A DNA stretch of 37,766 bases from an uncultured Candidatus Saccharibacteria bacterium (lineage in GTDB: Bacteria > Patescibacteriota > Saccharimonadia > Saccharimonadales > Saccharimonadaceae), in the NCBI GenBank assembly GCA_947166895.1, contig CAMVFY010000006.1:1-37766 (forward strand), read 5' to 3'. Shown here in pieces: positions 1-11,246 of the stretch. The notes under the pieces are model-generated. The model was not told the DNA's origin. It made no database searches and saw nothing but the letters and a program-made list of their open reading frames with translations. The position numbers were made by a program, and so were the translations under genes. Positions within the stretch are counted from its first letter, which is position 1; every line of letters starts with the position of its first letter.

Positions 1-23
1 CTTTGGTTTTCTCCGGCGCCATC
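1..23 (+). repeat. 23-nt repeat copy A, likely the flank just downstream of the DGR variable repeat (target gene lies left of the window)
   Basis: ctttggttttctccggcgccatc matches 2883-2905 (ctttggttttctccgacgccatc) at 22 of 23 positions; copy B lies just downstream of the template repeat. Confidence 0.7.
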
Positions 24-111
24 TCCCTGGAATAATGCGCCCCCTTCCCGCGAGCCACTGCGAGCGTGGAAGAGGCGGCGCGGAACAAAAAAATAAATAA
101 AGTGATAACGT

Positions 112-1098
112 ATGCAAAAGAAACTACCGATGGATTGGTATTTACACCAACAGGATGCACAAAAGAAAAATGATGCTCGTCGGCAGGAGCCGGCGTCGGA
201 GCTGATGAAGGTGGTGGCGGCGAAGGTTCCAGTAAAAAGTAAAATCAAGAAGGATTTTAGTGCTAACGAACAAGAGGAAATCCAGCAGAAGATACGGAAA
301 TTGGCGATACAGAAATCCACTGTTGAGAAGGAAAAGAGTGAGGAGACAATTGAGAGACGAAAGAAAATTGTAGCTATCAAGAAAAAAGCTAAGGAAATGG
401 AAAAAGGAAATCAGTCGAAGATAATTTTGTTCCCTTCGTATTCCAGAGATTCTGATAAGTTGGAGTGGTATAAGATGGGGGAGTTTTCGGCGATGTATTA
501 TGTATACAGAATGGCGGCACGCATGGGTAGGACGGCAAAGCTACAGAAAGATACGGACAAATTTTGGAGGATGAGTACAGTTGCTAGTATTAAGATGATA
601 GACAAATTTCTGGAGCTCGCGAAAGGATTAAATGAAATAGATCGACACGAGGAGACGATGGATGGATTTCATTTATTGTACTTGAAGAAGCCATTAACGG
701 ATGAGGAGGTGGGGGTACTGCGTCGGACTGAGGCCATGCGTAAAGAAATGATGCATAATGTTTTGAAACCGAAGAAAGCTGATACGGGAGTATACCAAGC
801 GATATTGATGGTAGATAGGCAGGTGCTGCCTAAGGTAAATAATATGCAGAAGGGGTATTTTATAACAGTAGGTGATAAGATGGCGCAGAGTATACATGAG
901 CTTACTACAACGTATTTTTTGTATGCGGACGGGGCGATAAGAGTGGAGTTGGCGCGAGAGAAACTATTGGAATCGATAATGTGTTTGATGTCCGGGGTGG
1001 CGTTACTTGGTGAAGTAGATGCGTGGAGTGCCGATACGGCAACTGCAGTAGGTGAAAACGTGAATCATTTGAAAAAATTAATACAAGAGATGAAGTGA
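112..1098 (+). CDS. avd: Avd-like DGR accessory protein with a long N-terminal extension
   Basis: ORF of 328 aa directly upstream of and overlapping the RT; C-terminal ~110 aa (VYQAILMVDRQVLPKVNNMQKGYFITVGDKMAQSIHELTTTYFLYADG...LLESIMCLMSGVALL) has the helical-bundle pattern of Avd proteins. Confidence 0.7.
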   Translation: MQKKLPMDWYLHQQDAQKKNDARRQEPASELMKVVAAKVPVKSKIKKDFSANEQEEIQQKIRKLAIQKSTVEKEKSEETIERRKKIVAIKKKAKEMEKGNQSKIILFPSYSRDSDKLEWYKMGEFSAMYYVYRMAARMGRTAKLQKDTDKFWRMSTVASIKMIDKFLELAKGLNEIDRHEETMDGFHLLYLKKPLTDEEVGVLRRTEAMRKEMMHNVLKPKKADTGVYQAILMVDRQVLPKVNNMQKGYFITVGDKMAQSIHELTTTYFLYADGAIRVELAREKLLESIMCLMSGVALLGEVDAWSADTATAVGENVNHLKKLIQEMK

Positions 1099-2399
1099 TG
1101 TTAGAACACGATAAAAACAAGCCTTTAATGTGCACGGGCGTCAGGAAAACAAATGCTGAAGCGACCAAATTGATGAGTAATGCGGACATGCGCGTACCAG
1201 AGAATATAACGAATAATGGATTTCAGGATTTTTTCGGTTATAAAAAATTGTATAGTGATGGCAACAATGAGGAATGGCTGGAAAATCCAAAAAACTTACT
1301 ACTGTTAGAGTTGTATAATGCTGAGAAAATAGCACGGCGAGGTGGTAAACGAAAGACCATGGATACGCATGGGTTTGAGGTGAATCTGTTTGAAAACTTG
1401 GTGCGGTTAAGAGATGCGTTGTGGGAAGGAGTATATTATCCAAATAGAGGCACGGTGCATGTTATATTTGACCCAGTACAGAGAGAAATTTTTGCGGCAC
1501 CGTATGTAGATAGAATTTTGCATCACTGGGTTGTTGGTACGATTATGAAATGGTGGGAGCCGAGACTTAGCTACGATTCTTATTCTTGTAGAAAGGGTAA
1601 GGGAACTTTGTTTGGAATAAAACGTTTGCAAAAACATATATTGTCAGTGTCTCAGAATTGTACCAAAACTGCCTACGTAATACAGCTAGATATATCCGGG
1701 TACTTTATGCATATTAAACGGGATATTTTATATGAAAAGGTGATGTGGGGGTTAGATCAACAATTTTCGCCTGAGAAAAGAGATAAACGATACGAGATAC
1801 TCAAGTGGGCTATAGCGCAAATTATCTTTGATGATCCGACGGATGGGGTAAAGTTGCAAGGTTCATATAGGGATTGGATTGGACTACCGGAGGACAAGAG
1901 CTTGATGCTACAACCAGAAGGACAAGGAATGGTGATTGGAAATTACACATCACAGACTTTTTCTAATGTTTATCTAGATGGTTTGGACAGGTTTATTACT
2001 TTTGATTTGGGTTATAAACACTATGGAAGGTATGTGGACGATTTTTATTATGTGGTGACAGAAGAAGAGTTACCACAAGCAAAACAAGACATTCGGGCAA
2101 TTGCAGATTTCTTAATTGGGTATGGACTTAGATTGAATTTCAAAAAGACGCGGATTACGGAAGTGCACAAAGGGGTGAAATTTTTGGGGGCAGTAGTAAG
2201 AGGACGACAGATTTTTCCTGGGGAAAGAGTCGTGAAAAATTTTCGTGAGGCAGTGCGGCTGGTGGAAACGGGGGAGAAAGACCCAAGCGTGGTTGTTTCG
2301 TATTTGGGGATGTTCTCACATTACGATGCGGGAAAGATAATTGCTAAGGCATTTGGTAGCGTGGGGTGGAATTATGTATACGACAAAAAGCGAAGGTGA
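1098..2399 (+). CDS. DGR-type reverse transcriptase
   Basis: RT motifs: VFDPVQREIFAAPYVDRILHHWV, QGMVIGNYTSQTFSNVYLDGLD (DGR/IGNxTSQ-type), YGRYVDDFYYVV catalytic YxDD, KTRITEVHKGVKFLGAVV. Preferred ATG at 1098 overlaps the upstream TGA; the ORF track extends to a GTG at 1095. Confidence 0.92.
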   Translation: MLEHDKNKPLMCTGVRKTNAEATKLMSNADMRVPENITNNGFQDFFGYKKLYSDGNNEEWLENPKNLLLLELYNAEKIARRGGKRKTMDTHGFEVNLFENLVRLRDALWEGVYYPNRGTVHVIFDPVQREIFAAPYVDRILHHWVVGTIMKWWEPRLSYDSYSCRKGKGTLFGIKRLQKHILSVSQNCTKTAYVIQLDISGYFMHIKRDILYEKVMWGLDQQFSPEKRDKRYEILKWAIAQIIFDDPTDGVKLQGSYRDWIGLPEDKSLMLQPEGQGMVIGNYTSQTFSNVYLDGLDRFITFDLGYKHYGRYVDDFYYVVTEEELPQAKQDIRAIADFLIGYGLRLNFKKTRITEVHKGVKFLGAVVRGRQIFPGERVVKNFREAVRLVETGEKDPSVVVSYLGMFSHYDAGKIIAKAFGSVGWNYVYDKKRR

Positions 2400-2677
2400 T
2401 ATAATAATTTTGGAATGCTAGGGCGATAAAGAGGAATAAAAATAGACTTCGTCTTATCGTAAGTTCCTTAAGTGGAGATGGCGAAGAACGTACTTTGCGA
2501 GATAAGTTGAGTTTGCGACTAAGGTCAAACCTTCGGCTATCAAGGTAGCTTTGGTGGATTAAAAAGTGTTCTGTGGGCCGCATTCGCGGTTTTGTGTTTA
2601 TTGAAGAGAGGCGTGTGCGAATTTCGCAGGGTTTGCTGGAAGATGACTCCTATCTACTGATTGGAATATCTACCCCT

Positions 2678-2847
2678 CTGTCGGGCAACTTCTACAATAG
2701 CTCGGCGAACAATCAGAATGAATGGGGCAACTGGTGGTCATCTACTTACAACAATGGCAACAACATGTACAAACTAAACGTGAATCCAACGAACGTCAAC
2801 CCGAACAACAACAACAATCGCAACAACGGTAACTCGATGAGGTGCTT
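2678..2847 (+). other. DGR template repeat (TR); boundaries approximate
   Basis: Adenine-rich AAC-saturated region downstream of the RT. In the 2573 frame, 22 of 57 sense codons from 2687 to the stop are Asn (16 AAC, 6 AAT): GNWWSSTYNNGNNMYKLNVNPTNVNPNNNNNRNNGNSMRCL, the pattern of a TR for a C-type-lectin/FGE-like (Fib_succ_major type) variable region. Confidence 0.88.
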
Positions 2848-2882
2848 AGTAGGCGAGTAGCTGGTTTTGAGTTGTTTGGTTC

Positions 2883-2905
2883 CTTTGGTTTTCTCCGACG
2901 CCATC
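2883..2905 (+). repeat. 23-nt repeat copy B, flank of the template repeat
   Basis: 22/23 match to window positions 1-23. Confidence 0.7.
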
Positions 2906-2969
2906 CAGAGGGTTAAAAATTCCAGAGGGGTAGGTGTTTTAGTTCGGGTAGAAATTATGGCTTCAATAT

Positions 2970-3533
2970 TTACATCCTGTCGATGGATTCGACAAGGTAA
3001 AGAAGGGCCTCGGCGCGCCTTGATTCATCGGAGATTTCTTTGGCAGCTTTGTAGGCCGGCTCTAGAACAGTGTAGTCCTTGAGATTTTCGAAGATGTCGC
3101 GATAGAGGTTGAATTTTTGAGTGGGATCTAGTGAAAGATGATCTAGGAGCGGGACAAGGTCACGAAGGGCAGCCTCTTTGACCTGGTGCATGTTGAGGCT
3201 AGGTGTGGTGGTTGGAGTTTCGAATGAAGTAGGCGCTGTGGGGGCCGGAGCTACTGGAGCCGGAGCTGGCGTGAAGCCGGGAATCTCGAGTTCGGGAATG
3301 TTTGCGGTGTCGAGTGGAGCTATCGGCTCGGGCATTTCGGGCGCAGGAGCAACGACTGGAGGTTTTGGTTCGGGAAATGGACCGACTGGCTCGCCTAATT
3401 CTCCCGTGTCACCTTCGGGAACAGAAGAAGGAGCCGCTACGGGATCCGAAAAAACTGGGTCGACACTAGTCGTGTTAGTAATATCATCGATTGCTTTTTG
3501 TAGATCGTTGTCTACGGTTTGATTTTGGTCCAT
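2970..3533 (-). CDS. Hypothetical Pro/Ala-rich protein
   Basis: 187-aa ORF; acidic/proline-rich N-terminal half and helical C-terminal half; TATAAT and SD-like aaggtggg upstream on the minus strand. Confidence 0.65.
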   Translation of the reverse strand: MDQNQTVDNDLQKAIDDITNTTSVDPVFSDPVAAPSSVPEGDTGELGEPVGPFPEPKPPVVAPAPEMPEPIAPLDTANIPELEIPGFTPAPAPVAPAPTAPTSFETPTTTPSLNMHQVKEAALRDLVPLLDHLSLDPTQKFNLYRDIFENLKDYTVLEPAYKAAKEISDESRRAEALLYLVESIDRM

Positions 3534-4197: not shown

Positions 4198-4251
4198 TGC
4201 ATCTAACGATGCATCATTAAAAATGGAATTCGGTTCTCGCTTCGCTCGAAG

Positions 4252-4274
4252 CGAATCTCCCACCCTCCGCCATG
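4252..4274 (+). repeat. Direct repeat of the tRNA-Ser 3' end
   Basis: cgaatctcccaccctccgccatg is identical to 4177-4199 (23/23), offset 75 bp. Confidence 0.9.
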
Positions 4275-4309
4275 TGGACAATATGGAGAAGGGGTGGTAT
4301 AATTGGATT

Positions 4310-4726
4310 ATGAAAAACGTTTTGAAAGTGATTTTATCAGTAGTAATGGTGGGGTTGATTAGCTTGACGGGTTTGTCGACGGTGTCGGCGTTGACTTTGC
4401 AGGATGGTGCGGAGGCGGCGAAGTGCGATGGTTGCCCGGAGAATTTATTCGGTAATACGGGGGTTTTTAAGCAGGTCACAAACACAATTTTGTATATTGT
4501 GGGTATTATCGCCGTAATCATGCTAATTATCGGTGGAATTAAGTATGTGGTGTCGGGCGGTGACTCTAAGAAGGTGACCGATGCAAAGAACACCGTGCTT
4601 TATGCAATTATTGGGCTTGTGATTGCGTTTTTGGCGTTTGCGATTGTAAACTTTGTAATAACGGCGTTGCCGAGTTCTGAAACTGAGGAACAAACTAGCT
4701 TGATTTTAAATTGTACTAACGGCTAA
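4310..4726 (+). CDS. VirB2/TrbC-like pilin family protein (T4SS pilin)
   Basis: Signal peptide plus two TM segments: NTILYIVGIIAVIMLIIGGIKYVVSGGDSKKVTDAKNTVLYAIIGLVIAFLAFAIVNFVI. ATG at 4310 preferred over the ORF-track start at 4223, which lies in the tRNA-tail repeat. Confidence 0.82.
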   Translation: MKNVLKVILSVVMVGLISLTGLSTVSALTLQDGAEAAKCDGCPENLFGNTGVFKQVTNTILYIVGIIAVIMLIIGGIKYVVSGGDSKKVTDAKNTVLYAIIGLVIAFLAFAIVNFVITALPSSETEEQTSLILNCTNG

Positions 4727-6066: not shown

Positions 6067-6360
6067 TTAACCGTTGATGTTAGCGATAACGAAGTTGACG
6101 ATTGCAAAGGCAAGAATCACTACAACGAGGCCAATGACACCGTAAAGAATAGTGTCTTTGGCTTTTTTAACTTTGCCGGCGTCGCCGGTAGAAGTCATGT
6201 ATTGGATGCCACCAATGATGATAACGATAACGGCCACGATACCGAGAACACCAATTACTACGTTTAAAATGTTGGTGACATTCCCTGTAAGGTCGGAGGA
6301 GCCATCACCTACTGGGTTGGGTTTGGTGTTTTCTGCTAACTGTATAAGAAGATTCTTCAT
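6067..6360 (-). CDS. VirB2-like pilin family protein
   Basis: 97 aa; ILNVVIGVLGIVAVIVIIIGGIQYMTSTGDAGKVKKAKDTILYGVIGLVVVILAFAIVNFVIANI. Confidence 0.85.
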   Translation of the reverse strand: MKNLLIQLAENTKPNPVGDGSSDLTGNVTNILNVVIGVLGIVAVIVIIIGGIQYMTSTGDAGKVKKAKDTILYGVIGLVVVILAFAIVNFVIANING

Positions 6361-6475
6361 TTTGTTCCTTTATACTTAATTTAGGTTAATTGTATAATTT
6401 ATTTTAGTTTTTTGCAAGGGTAATTTGCAAATTATCTTTTTGTTATCCTTGGGGTTCCTTAGTTCGGCTGTTGGT

Positions 6476-6883
6476 TTATTCACCACCGATGTTGGCGATG
6501 ACGAAATTAACAATCACAAAGGATAGGATAACTACGATAAGGCCGATAACGGCATAGAGGATAGTGTCGCGGGCTTTTTTGGCTTTGCCGGTGTCACCAG
6601 CGGAAGTCATATACTGAACACCACCGATGATAATGAAAATAACAGCAATAATGCCGGTGATACTAATGACAACATTGAGGATGCCTTGGACGGCAGATGG
6701 GAGAGAATTTTCTGAAACTTCGTTTCCACAACCGGCGGCTTCTTTGACGGATTGAGCAACTTTACAATCTGGGCTGCAGATGTTGTCACAAGAATTGGCG
6801 GCGAAGGCTGGGGATATTGCAACGCCAAAGCCGAGAAGGCTGACAATTGCGACTGTCGCTAGTTTAATTAATTTTGATTTCAT
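6476..6883 (-). CDS. VirB2-like pilin family protein
   Basis: 135 aa; signal peptide, Cys-rich segment and the same GGVQYMTSAGDTGKAKKARDTILYAVIGLIVVILSFVIVNFVIANI module; SD aaggagg before ATG. Confidence 0.85.
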   Translation of the reverse strand: MKSKLIKLATVAIVSLLGFGVAISPAFAANSCDNICSPDCKVAQSVKEAAGCGNEVSENSLPSAVQGILNVVISITGIIAVIFIIIGGVQYMTSAGDTGKAKKARDTILYAVIGLIVVILSFVIVNFVIANIGGE

Positions 6884-7625
6884 GGACCTCCTTCGAGATG
6901 TAATTATCGTTTAATAAGCCGGTTTGATTTTGGTTGGCGTCGCGGATGGCGTTGGAAACAAAAGCGGTGATGACTGCGGCAAGAGCTACGATGATGAGAC
7001 CGATGAGTGAGTACATGATCATATCTTTGGCTTTTTTGGTTTTGCCCGGATCGCCGGAGGATGTCATATAGGTGATACCGCCGTAGACGAGGAAGATGGC
7101 TGAGACGATGCCAGCGATGGCGGTGAACCAATTGATAAGGTTTTGGACGAGGTTGCTTGGATCGATACAACCGGAACCGGTGATAGAGTCACAGTTGGCG
7201 AGATTGCCATTTTGGACAAGGAGAATGCGAATGGTGCCCATGATGAGATTTGCCGACATGACAATGGCGAGGCCGATGAAAGCTTGGAAAAGAGTCTTTT
7301 TGCCGGCGGCGACTTTGCCTGGATCACCACCGGAGAATGTATAGAGATAACCGCCATAAATGACATAGCCGAGGACTAGATAGGCAGCAACAACAGTGAT
7401 ATCGGTGGCGATGTTGGCGACTATTTGCCAGATGCCGGTTTTTAAGGAATTTTCATCGGAAATATTAACACCGCAATCCCAAGAAGTGAGACCGAGAAAA
7501 TTAGGGCATTCTTCGCCGTCGCGACCATCGAACGCGCGTGCGGCAAAGACGGGTGTAGAAATGCTCAGACAGAGAAAAGATATAATAGTTAGAGGAACGA
7601 AGATTTTTTTGAGTAAATTTTTCAT
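6864..7625 (-). CDS. Two-module VirB2-like pilin family membrane protein
   Basis: 253 aa with two related modules: VLGYVIYGGYLYTFSGGDPGKVAAGKKTLFQAFIGLAIVMSANLI and IFLVYGGITYMTSSGDPGKTKKAKDMIMYSLIGLIIVALAAVITAFV. Confidence 0.82.
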   Translation of the reverse strand: MKNLLKKIFVPLTIISFLCLSISTPVFAARAFDGRDGEECPNFLGLTSWDCGVNISDENSLKTGIWQIVANIATDITVVAAYLVLGYVIYGGYLYTFSGGDPGKVAAGKKTLFQAFIGLAIVMSANLIMGTIRILLVQNGNLANCDSITGSGCIDPSNLVQNLINWFTAIAGIVSAIFLVYGGITYMTSSGDPGKTKKAKDMIMYSLIGLIIVALAAVITAFVSNAIRDANQNQTGLLNDNYISKEVHEIKIN

Positions 7626-7727: not shown

Positions 7728-7756
7728 TTGACAAAAACGCTTATGTGTGCTATAAT
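7728..7756 (+). promoter_or_regulatory. Consensus sigma70-type promoter
   Basis: TTGACA (7728-7733), 17 nt, TATAAT (7751-7756). Confidence 0.85.
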
Positions 7757-7790
7757 ACAGTCACGCCTTAAAAGGGAGGCGATTTTCATT

Positions 7791-10700
7791 ATGGTTATCA
7801 AAAAAAGATTAAAATCCGGACTGGTAAAGTTTGTTTTTGGTGTTTTTTTGGTAATGATGGGGCTAATTGGCGGCGTTACTGGTGTGGTCGGTGGCAACAT
7901 GCCTGTATATGCCGAACCAGTTCCGCAAGCTACTACGGACGATGTGACTCAGCCGACACCTGCAACTAACGAGGATGACCAGGCGAGTAACCAGACGAGC
8001 CAAAATGCAGCGCATGGCGATAGCTGTCAGAGTAGCCTTGGTGCGATTGGTTGGCTTGTTTGTCCTACGACTGGTAAGATTGCTGAAGCGGTGGACTGGC
8101 TATATGACAAGATTGAAAATATTTTGGTGATTAATCCGGTGCCGGCGGAGGATGGTTCACCGATTTTTGAGATTTGGAAATATTGTCGTGGAATTACGAA
8201 TATAGTATTTATTATATTCCTTCTTGTGGTGATTTATTCACAAATTACTGGGCTTGGAATATCGAATTACGGGATTAAGAAAACGTTACCGAAGCTAATT
8301 GTTGCGGCGGTGATGGTAAACCTATCTTTCTTGATTTGTTCGCTGGCGGTAGATTTGTCAAATGTGATTGGTAATGGAGTTCGAGGCGTGTTTACTTCGA
8401 TTGCGGAGTCGGCGGTAGCGGGGGGTGCATCGGGGTTCGCGGCGGGTGGTGATTTGACGCGCGAAATGAAGATGTCGTATGCGGGGATGTACGGCTCGCT
8501 GGCTGGTGGTGCGGCGCTTGCAGTGGGAGCGGGGGCAATTGCGATTGAATCTGGTGCGATCTGGATGCTTATCCCGACGGTGCTGGGTGCGATTGTGGCT
8601 GTGGCGACAGGGTTAATTACTATTGCTTTGCGACAGGCGGTGGTAGCATTACTTATTATGGTATCGCCACTTGCGATGGTGGCAAATATTTTGCCGAACA
8701 CGGAACAGTGGTTTAAGAAGTGGAAAGATTTGCTTTATAAGATGTTGATATTTTATCCAATGTTCTCGCTGTTATTTGGAGCATCGCAGTTGGCTGGATT
8801 TGCGATTATCGCCAGCGCTAAGGATGGCTTTGGGCTAATGCTGGGGATGGCGGTGCAAATTTTCCCGTTGTTTTTCTCGTGGAAATTAATGCAGATGTCG
8901 GGAACGTTCCTTGGGAATATCAATGCAAGATTGCGTGGACTTACGGCGGCACCGTTGGCGACGAACCGGTCGTGGGCGGAGTCGAGGCGGCAATTATCTA
9001 AACAGCGACATTTGGCGTCTGGACAGGCGTATACTCCGTCTTTGAGGTTGATGCAATTTATGTCAAATCGGAGAATTGCACGAGAGGCCGAGCTTGGTGA
9101 GGTTTCTGCTGAAGTAAAGAATAGAGGTTTGGCATATCACGCAAGCTCTCATTACCGTAAAGATGGTACGGTTGCGCGGAAGGGCGAAAGGGCCTACGCA
9201 GGACAGGCTAGGAATATGGAATACCAAAGAGCTATTGCACGGCACAGTAATAATATGAACAAAGGCCTTGGCGAGTTGGCAAGGGGATCTAGCCAGAAAG
9301 CCCGACTTGATGCTCTTGACACAAAGAACGTTAATGCGTCGGATTATTTGAAGGTAGAGCAAGCTCGAGGCGAAAAGATTGAGTATGACAATGCGGCTAG
9401 CTTCTATAAGAGAATGGAAGACGCGATGAATGTTCATATGGACGCAATTAATGGATTTGAATATCAAAGAAACAAAGACGGAAAGCTTGTTCTAGATGAA
9501 AATGGCAATAAAATATTGGTACCGAAGTCTACATATAAATTTCACTTTGATCCTAATAATCTCGCTAAGACTGCGGAAATGGCGCGCTATAATGCGATGA
9601 AACAAATCATGGATGGGAGCGAGGCTGACGTTCAGTTTGCGGCAGCGACGGCGGCGCAGGCCTTTGATACCCAAAAGAAGATTGTTGAGACGAAGATGCA
9701 GAAGTACTTTGAACTGGCTCCTCCAACTCAAGACGTGGTTTATAGATTGACTGAGCTGACGAACAGTGCTAGTGCAATAAAAGAGATTGATTCCATTTTG
9801 CCTGGGCTTAGGATTTTGAATCAGCGTGGCGATACGGACTTATTAAGGCAACAAATGAAAAATATTTTGGACCAGGGGCTTGATCTTGGGACCCATGCTT
9901 CGCAAGCACTTGCCAGTTTCTTGATGTTCGAAGTAAAGGATAGTGATCCGTGGCTTCGACGGTTTGGTAAATACATTAACCTTGAGACTGCTAACGTTTT
10001 TAACGAGAATAAACGTCAAGAGATGAAGGTTACTTATGATGAGTATATTAAAGGCTATCACAAAGAGCCAAACGGTAAATTAATGTATGCAAAGAGGCCG
10101 ATGTCGGTACTTATGGAAGGTACGTCACTTGATGGAGTTGAAAGAACAGCATATTCGAACTTTGATGATAGCCTAAAGGAAGTGTATAGCTATATTGGTG
10201 AGGATAAAGAGAAGCATTTGGATGTAGCGGAATATTTGAAAAAAAGAGAGGAAATACAGAATGCGATTGGTCCACAGTTTATTTCAGCAAGTTTGAAGTA
10301 TTTGTCGGGTAGCGAGCAACTTAAAAATGCTGTTAGCTTTTTGACCGGTTATTCTTATTCCCAGGTAAAGAATGATGATGGAAGTAATGTGCTTGATAAA
10401 AATGGTGATGTTGTATATGAGTGGAAGGCGCGATGGGAAAAAGAAGGAGATACTCTGTATGGTAGTGATGTCGCTGAGGAATATTTCCGTAGAAAGACGA
10501 TTGAGTATTTGAAAAATCAGACCCCGTCGCAGATTCTTGGACTCCGTTCGGATTATTATAGTTCGTTAGCGAATCATCTTGTAGAAGAATATGAAAATAC
10601 AGATATGAAAGATTGGACTCCAGAAGCGATTGCAGAGCGAGAGAGTTTAATGAGGGAGCGTGCGGAAATCCAGACGCGGTATGGCGATTTACCAGCAGAT

Positions 10701-11246
10701 AAAGCCCAAGAGATGCGTAAGGCGGATATGGCGGAGCTTAGAAAGAAAATGGCGGGAGCTCAATTTAGACAAGTGCTTGATTCGAAGGGGAAGTTGAACC
10801 AGATTTATAGAACGCGACGTTCTGGTGCGGCAAACAATGCGAAAGACTGGGTGCGAGATTGGCTCAATCTTGATGACGAGGCGTCGATTAACTTTAAGTT
10901 AAATGTAGATCGAGATAGGATGAATAAGCATCTTGATGAATTGAAGAAAAAAGTGATGGTGGAGAACGAAGCTGACCTAGATGGGCAAGTTCAGGGAAAC
11001 GGGATTTACACTGAGCATGATACAGTGAGGTTTACCACTGGGATAGAGGATATTTGGGATGATCTTAAAACTGATGATGATAGTGCGTTTTATGAGCAAT
11101 CACTAAGTTATCTAGAAGAAAATTTAGGCAAAGATAGTTATATCGTTGCGGAATATAAGAGATATCGTAAAGACGATCCATATGCAGATGGGTATACTTT
11201 GAAAGAGTTTCTGCTTAGCTTATTGAGTGATATAGATAATTATTAG
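7791..11246 (+). CDS. VirB6/TrbL-like T4SS membrane protein with long C-terminal soluble region
   Basis: Multiple TM segments in the N-terminal ~400 aa (GITNIVFIIFLLVVIYSQITG..., IVAVATGLITIALRQAVVALLIMVSPLAMVANILP) and a ~750-aa soluble tail. Start trimmed to ATG 7791 because the 7728 TTG lies inside the -35 box; SD gggagg. Confidence 0.78.
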   Translation: MVIKKRLKSGLVKFVFGVFLVMMGLIGGVTGVVGGNMPVYAEPVPQATTDDVTQPTPATNEDDQASNQTSQNAAHGDSCQSSLGAIGWLVCPTTGKIAEAVDWLYDKIENILVINPVPAEDGSPIFEIWKYCRGITNIVFIIFLLVVIYSQITGLGISNYGIKKTLPKLIVAAVMVNLSFLICSLAVDLSNVIGNGVRGVFTSIAESAVAGGASGFAAGGDLTREMKMSYAGMYGSLAGGAALAVGAGAIAIESGAIWMLIPTVLGAIVAVATGLITIALRQAVVALLIMVSPLAMVANILPNTEQWFKKWKDLLYKMLIFYPMFSLLFGASQLAGFAIIASAKDGFGLMLGMAVQIFPLFFSWKLMQMSGTFLGNINARLRGLTAAPLATNRSWAESRRQLSKQRHLASGQAYTPSLRLMQFMSNRRIAREAELGEVSAEVKNRGLAYHASSHYRKDGTVARKGERAYAGQARNMEYQRAIARHSNNMNKGLGELARGSSQKARLDALDTKNVNASDYLKVEQARGEKIEYDNAASFYKRMEDAMNVHMDAINGFEYQRNKDGKLVLDENGNKILVPKSTYKFHFDPNNLAKTAEMARYNAMKQIMDGSEADVQFAAATAAQAFDTQKKIVETKMQKYFELAPPTQDVVYRLTELTNSASAIKEIDSILPGLRILNQRGDTDLLRQQMKNILDQGLDLGTHASQALASFLMFEVKDSDPWLRRFGKYINLETANVFNENKRQEMKVTYDEYIKGYHKEPNGKLMYAKRPMSVLMEGTSLDGVERTAYSNFDDSLKEVYSYIGEDKEKHLDVAEYLKKREEIQNAIGPQFISASLKYLSGSEQLKNAVSFLTGYSYSQVKNDDGSNVLDKNGDVVYEWKARWEKEGDTLYGSDVAEEYFRRKTIEYLKNQTPSQILGLRSDYYSSLANHLVEEYENTDMKDWTPEAIAERESLMRERAEIQTRYGDLPADKAQEMRKADMAELRKKMAGAQFRQVLDSKGKLNQIYRTRRSGAANNAKDWVRDWLNLDDEASINFKLNVDRDRMNKHLDELKKKVMVENEADLDGQVQGNGIYTEHDTVRFTTGIEDIWDDLKTDDDSAFYEQSLSYLEENLGKDSYIVAEYKRYRKDDPYADGYTLKEFLLSLLSDIDNY

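Follow-up and report, generated by a model that had tools for sequence, protein, structure and literature searches.

A DGR locus in a Saccharibacteria genome whose contig begins in the tail of a variable repeat

The diversity-generating retroelement (DGR) locus described here carries an accessory gene, a reverse transcriptase (RT) gene and a template repeat (TR), and the question that it raises is where its target gene lies. The window, meaning the whole stretch of 37,766 nucleotides that was analysed, begins shortly upstream of the accessory gene, and an earlier note, having seen that its first letters resemble the end of the TR, proposed that it starts immediately after the variable repeat (VR) of a target gene lying just outside. 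The analysis confirms that the window opens inside the tail of a VR and that the target gene was cut by an assembly break, a reading that accounts both for the whereabouts of the missing target and for the cause of the break at this place. The features on which this reading first depends are the following.

1 to 23, forward strand: 3' end of the unmutated tail shared by VR and TR, matching the TR at 2883-2905 and identical to the tail that follows the stop codon in the VR on contig C18
1 to 91, forward strand: flank following the VR, common to the VRs served in trans, with an exact 55-nt overlap with C18 and 89% agreement with C25 over 1-91
2667 to 2905, forward strand: TR, with four VR copies that carry adenine-biased mismatches; 22 of the 64 codons in frame are AAC or AAT
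2834 to 2860, forward strand: unmutated 3' block (IMH-like), TCGATGAGGTGCTTAGTAGGCGAGTAG, with six adenines, unchanged in all four VRs in the alignment

The match from which the proposal started stands: positions 1-23 agree with 2883-2905 at 22 of 23 positions, the single difference being a G at 16 where the TR has an adenine (2898), and 2883 does lie 23 nt beyond the stop codon of the TR frame, a TAG at 2858-2860. With up to three mismatches allowed, the 23-mer occurs at just these two sites in the window, and it was matched in none of 100 dinucleotide shuffles of the window. What has to be corrected is the boundary. Positions 1-23 do not follow the VR but are the final 23 nt of the unmutated 3' tail that VR and TR share, which puts the end of the VR's coding portion, and the expected stop codon of the target, about 23 nt to the left of position 1, beyond the contig edge. 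Since the window is an entire contig (C6:1-37766, one of 33 in a genome of 659,739 bases), the assembly holds no sequence of its left flank. The cis target gene probably lies to the left of the contig, and the cis VR would lie there too, together with its adenine bias.

Adenine-biased substitutions and a reading frame with an RCL-like end, both predicted by the earlier note for the missing flank, were looked at by proxy in four other VRs of the genome, where both turned out as predicted. These copies of the TR (C18:14874-15112, C7:30563-30764, C25:133-365 and C9:23115-23340) all encode, in frame, the C-terminal part of related FISUMP-type proteins ending in SMRCLVGE and a stop codon. Their mismatches fall at TR adenines in 21 of 22 cases on C18 (Fisher p 1e-11), 23 of 25 on C7 (p 1e-10), 35 of 41 on C25 (p 9e-17) and 30 of 53 on C9 (p 3e-6). 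In the block at 2834-2860 none of the 24 adenines summed over the four VRs is altered, and the first 20 nt of this block are found solely in the TR and the four VRs. The C9 copy is the most decayed, having 23 non-adenine mismatches and having lost the hairpin considered below, so that not all copies need be active. A FISUMP domain is recognisable in the targets, Fib_succ_major falls just under its Pfam cut-off in the targets of two related loci (L074 and L075), and a Listeria-Bacteroides repeat is recognisable in the target of L075; the TR frame itself gives a weak Pfam match, and the target fragment of this genome gives none. Many FISUMP-like paralogues, with open frames of about 480-960 aa, are present on C1, C2, C4, C10, C11 and C13, none of which matched the window TR. 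We hold it very probable that the locus is a DGR element in which positions 1-23 form the untranslated 3' tail of the VR in a gene for a FISUMP-type (C-type-lectin-like) surface protein left of the break, and in which a hairpin at 37-81 is linked to that VR.

The nature of the break emerges from exact overlaps between contigs. Window positions 1-55 are identical to the sequence that follows the VR on C18, the run being exactly 55 nt; the starts of C18 and C25 have exactly 55 nt in common, and the start of C7 recurs in C9 across exactly 55 nt. These overlaps, at the window and at two other contig starts, suggest that position 1 is a 55-mer junction in the assembly graph, and from their lengths we infer a graph of k=55 that would break wherever near-identical target genes branch. 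The same overlap permits a second arrangement, in which the VR assembled on C18 really adjoins the left end of the window, having been misjoined at the 55-mer branch, and the genome has four VRs rather than five. It is in keeping with this that the run shared with C18 is the size of the other contig overlaps, that the C18 VR is the least decayed copy with the TR tail nearest to the window's, and that the outer 3' arm of the hairpin is present in the window and absent past the C18 junction. The target paralogues of this genome, however, have long identical stretches in common, so that it is just as possible for two real VRs to have identical tails, and assemblers settle such graph branches by read pairs; a misjoin deserves serious thought but is the arrangement that we would not bet on.

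The sequence just beyond the shared tail folds as follows.

37 to 81, forward strand: hairpin or cruciform 3' of the VR, with a GC-rich stem and an apical GAGC-nnnn-GCGAG; DNA fold z = -3.1

An equally good fold was obtained in 2 of 200 shuffles. Hairpins with other stems occupy the same place in relatives (z of -6.4 in L077, -3.5 in L076 and -4.4 in L078), the fold being weaker in L074 and on C25, and an apical GAGC-n-GCGAA pattern is frequent among the relatives. The arms of a hairpin pair with each other at 96% of positions, as against 46% when arms are exchanged between loci, a contrast that is biased towards structure because the arms were chosen from folds. It is rather unlikely that the hairpin instead terminates transcription, or controls the accessory gene, and stands outside the VR target site: it sits between two same-strand genes and has the kind of GC-rich stem that is typical of terminators, but in the window it is not followed by a run of T, and the C25 VR has the same hairpin with no accessory gene behind. 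Moreover, a hairpin at the equivalent place downstream of the VR is required for homing in BPP-1, where the stem sequence is free and the loop is GRNA (PMC3240598), a loop consensus from which hairpin 37-81 departs. The loss of the hairpin from the most decayed VR, that on C9, is a single case that fits a homing role for a VR-linked hairpin.

Downstream of the hairpin lie the two protein genes of the element.

112 to 1098, forward strand: accessory protein of 328 aa, with a predicted long helix at residues 51-97, an alpha/beta domain at about 103-195 and an Avd-like helical bundle at about 197-325
1098 to 2399, forward strand: DGR reverse transcriptase, with IGNYTSQ and YVDD motifs; RVT_1 at 8e-15; best PDB match the BPP-1 DGR RT, 8ub7, at 2.5e-19

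The accessory protein was modelled with AlphaFold2 from six sequences (mean pLDDT 75.8, pTM 0.43). In Foldseek its C-terminal bundle matched Avd (4dwl, TM(target) 0.78; 8ubb_D, 0.77) and also the S23-type proteins 2gsc and 2rld; E-values for these bundle matches are weak (0.03-0.5, with 0.26 for 4dwl), yet the best of them, 4dwl included, have a probability of 1.0. Searches with the protein against Pfam, NCBIfam and PDB sequences gave no match, and none to known Avd families, and no relatives of it were found in IMG/VR. An Avd-like fold is therefore predicted for the C-terminal domain only, from the modelled fold and not from sequence. The middle domain was considered as a MutS domain I, that is, as part of a "MutS-like" DGR accessory protein, in view of a WYKMGDF... 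motif that resembles MutS-I by eye and of the beta-alpha-beta layout of the model; this is quite unlikely, as the domain has no Pfam, NCBIfam, PDB sequence or Foldseek match to MutS and gives a poor model on its own (pLDDT 70), and the assignment was dropped for want of sequence or fold support. MutS_I was matched in 0 of 40 Saccharibacteria genomes (this one and relatives), versus 11 of 14 control genomes. As a separate observation, 5 of 27 accessory relatives (alignment A2), distant members, have an N-terminal HTH_3 domain (best E 1.9e-8), which is possibly a DNA-binding fusion.

The RT has the [ILV]GxxxSQ motif and is closest to bRT, which places it among DGR-type RTs. Among 174 genomes of the genus the RT is present in 96 and the accessory protein in 80. 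In the nearest relatives, L074, whose RT is 77% identical, and L075, the locus is intact across the position of the junction and begins with a target whose C-terminus carries the VR, followed by the accessory gene, the RT and the TR, with 21/22 and 25/29 of the VR mismatches, respectively, at TR adenines. In 23 of 26 DGR loci examined in the genus the VR immediately precedes the accessory gene and shares its strand, so that this order is the rule; in two of the other three the VR lies beyond the TR, and one gave no repeat pair. The order target(VR)-avd-RT-TR proposed by the earlier note thus agrees with L074 and L075, except that "avd" fits only the C-terminal third of the accessory protein, which is Avd-like by predicted fold. 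The TR is on the RT strand only in the window, L074 and L075, and on the opposite strand in the other loci. In the RT tree these three and L076-L078, in which the TR is flipped, make up a single supported group of six, and this grouping of both orientations implies at least two orientation changes on the tree as drawn. An origin of 1-23 from a second TR, or from a fragment of a TR, is most improbable: the same 23-mer does terminate the TR, but window 1-91 can be aligned with what follows the VRs of C25 and C18 to a point past the end of TR similarity, and so is of VR type, its positions 24-91 matching those two flanks and not that of the TR, and in L074 and L075 the equivalent place is occupied by the VR of the target gene.

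With 1-23 taken as the tail of a VR, the element would work as follows. RNA of the TR would be copied by the error-prone RT together with the accessory protein and its Avd domain, adenines being turned into random bases during the copying, and the cDNA would then take the place of the homologous VR, with the unmutated 3' block and the hairpin as guides. A single TR would serve the cis target and several targets in trans, with four VR copies to be seen on other contigs. These homing steps, and current activity of the DGR, are proposed from sequence, and display of the target at the surface for contact between epibiont and host is likewise a probable rather than an observed role.

Two further features precede the TR.

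2400 to 2405, forward strand: TATAAT, a putative -10 box belonging to a separate RNA gene for the TR, with similar boxes in relatives of both TR orientations
2412 to 2666, forward strand: 5' leader of the TR RNA, predicted to be structured, with P2 arms at 2484-2491/2566-2573 and P3 arms at 2492-2498/2506-2512

The -10-like box and the leader travel with the TR where it is inverted (L076, L077, L115-L123). With the 5' arm of P2 fixed by its position before P3, a perfect 8/8 Watson-Crick partner was found downstream in 6 of 14 close loci, compared with 0.26% of shuffles that preserve base composition only; among 7 distant loci, whose 5' arms were initially picked by eye, 6 had a perfect 7/7 partner, compared with 1.3% of such shuffles. 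In a hand-made alignment of the leader arms, 8 of 15 pairs show changes on both sides and pairing reaches 92%, versus 39-51% in slid controls. The P2 of the window itself is weak, its best Watson-Crick partner pairing at 5/8, or 7/8 with G-U in the hand alignment. A first automatic search for P2 arms with G-U allowed scored barely above shuffles, whereas the stricter Watson-Crick test was clear; automatic consensus folding recovered P3 and part of P4 only, because MAFFT had misplaced the 3' arms of P2. No Rfam family matched window 1-3100. A GGTTAAAATTCC-like motif lies 3' of the TR in the window and its nearest relatives, and a short hairpin with a GAGA-like loop was seen by eye after the TR tail in L115, L117, L118 and L120-L123.

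The TR thus resembles an RNA gene in its own right, equipped with a -10 box and a structured leader that covaries, and in most relatives it is flipped. A fuller proposal, which we put forward tentatively and at somewhat less than even confidence, is that in these Saccharibacteria the TR stands alone as a small-RNA gene under a promoter of its own, that the conserved leader scaffolds the enlarged Avd-fusion protein and the RT in place of the trailing RNA of BPP-1, and that this autonomy permits both flipping and many unlinked targets. The fused accessory protein and the TR leader may be new in a DGR that is itself of a known kind, and a conserved leader RNA with a fused accessory protein offers another layout for the DGR ribonucleoprotein that can be put to the test.

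The genome holds a second complete DGR on C1, spanning L079 10875-13365 (G000:C1:40874-43364) and comprising a VR, an accessory gene (C1:41236-41988), an RT gene (C1:42015-43136) and an inverted TR. This TR agrees at 90% with its cis VR, at 80% with a copy on C4 (L083:2240-2456) and at 75% with a partial copy on C10 (L084:3029-3135), the FISUMP-like paralogues of C4 and C10 being those that match it; the TRs of the two DGRs are just 66% alike over 116 nt. Cultured members of the Saccharibacteria lineage live on other bacteria, and a genome of about 0.66 Mb with two DGRs and at least seven hypervariable surface-type loci agrees with diversification of contact proteins. Elsewhere in the window (4223-4726, 6067-7625 and 7728-11246) a series of small membrane proteins, pilin-like or TrbC-like, and a large protein resembling VirB6 were noted by eye, possibly parts of a secretion system.

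Among known systems the BPP-1 DGR (mtd-avd-TR-brt) is alike in its adenine-specific differences between TR and VR, a C-type-lectin-like target that carries the VR at its C-terminus, an Avd-type partner, a DGR RT with the SQ motif, an unmutated 3' block and a hairpin after the VR (PMC3240598). It differs in that the window TR comes after the RT and is preceded by its own promoter-like box and structured leader, whereas the structured RNA of BPP-1 trails the TR (PMC8867640). The window TR also serves several unlinked targets, its accessory protein has 328 aa as against about 110-128 aa, and the hairpin apex is GAGC-n-GCGAA here and a GRNA tetraloop in BPP-1.

DGRs of Patescibacteria/CPR were reportedly also treated by Paul et al. 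in 2017. Those of DGR clade 2 (Roux et al. 2021, PMC8144416) are alike in being cellular DGRs in a CPR genome and in that no transmembrane domain was recognised in the target by family search. They are mostly aquatic, whereas the window DGR is host-associated, with relatives from the ruminant gut, and a FISUMP domain can be recognised, along with a Listeria-Bacteroides repeat in L075. Several VRs occur in 28.6% of DGRs (PMC6642488), and in the multi-target DGRs of Thiohalocapsa PB-PSB1 (PMC10907252) remote VRs are apparently served in trans by one RT and TR, as they are here; unlike such systems, the present genome combines two separate DGRs and at least seven VR-like loci in 0.66 Mb.
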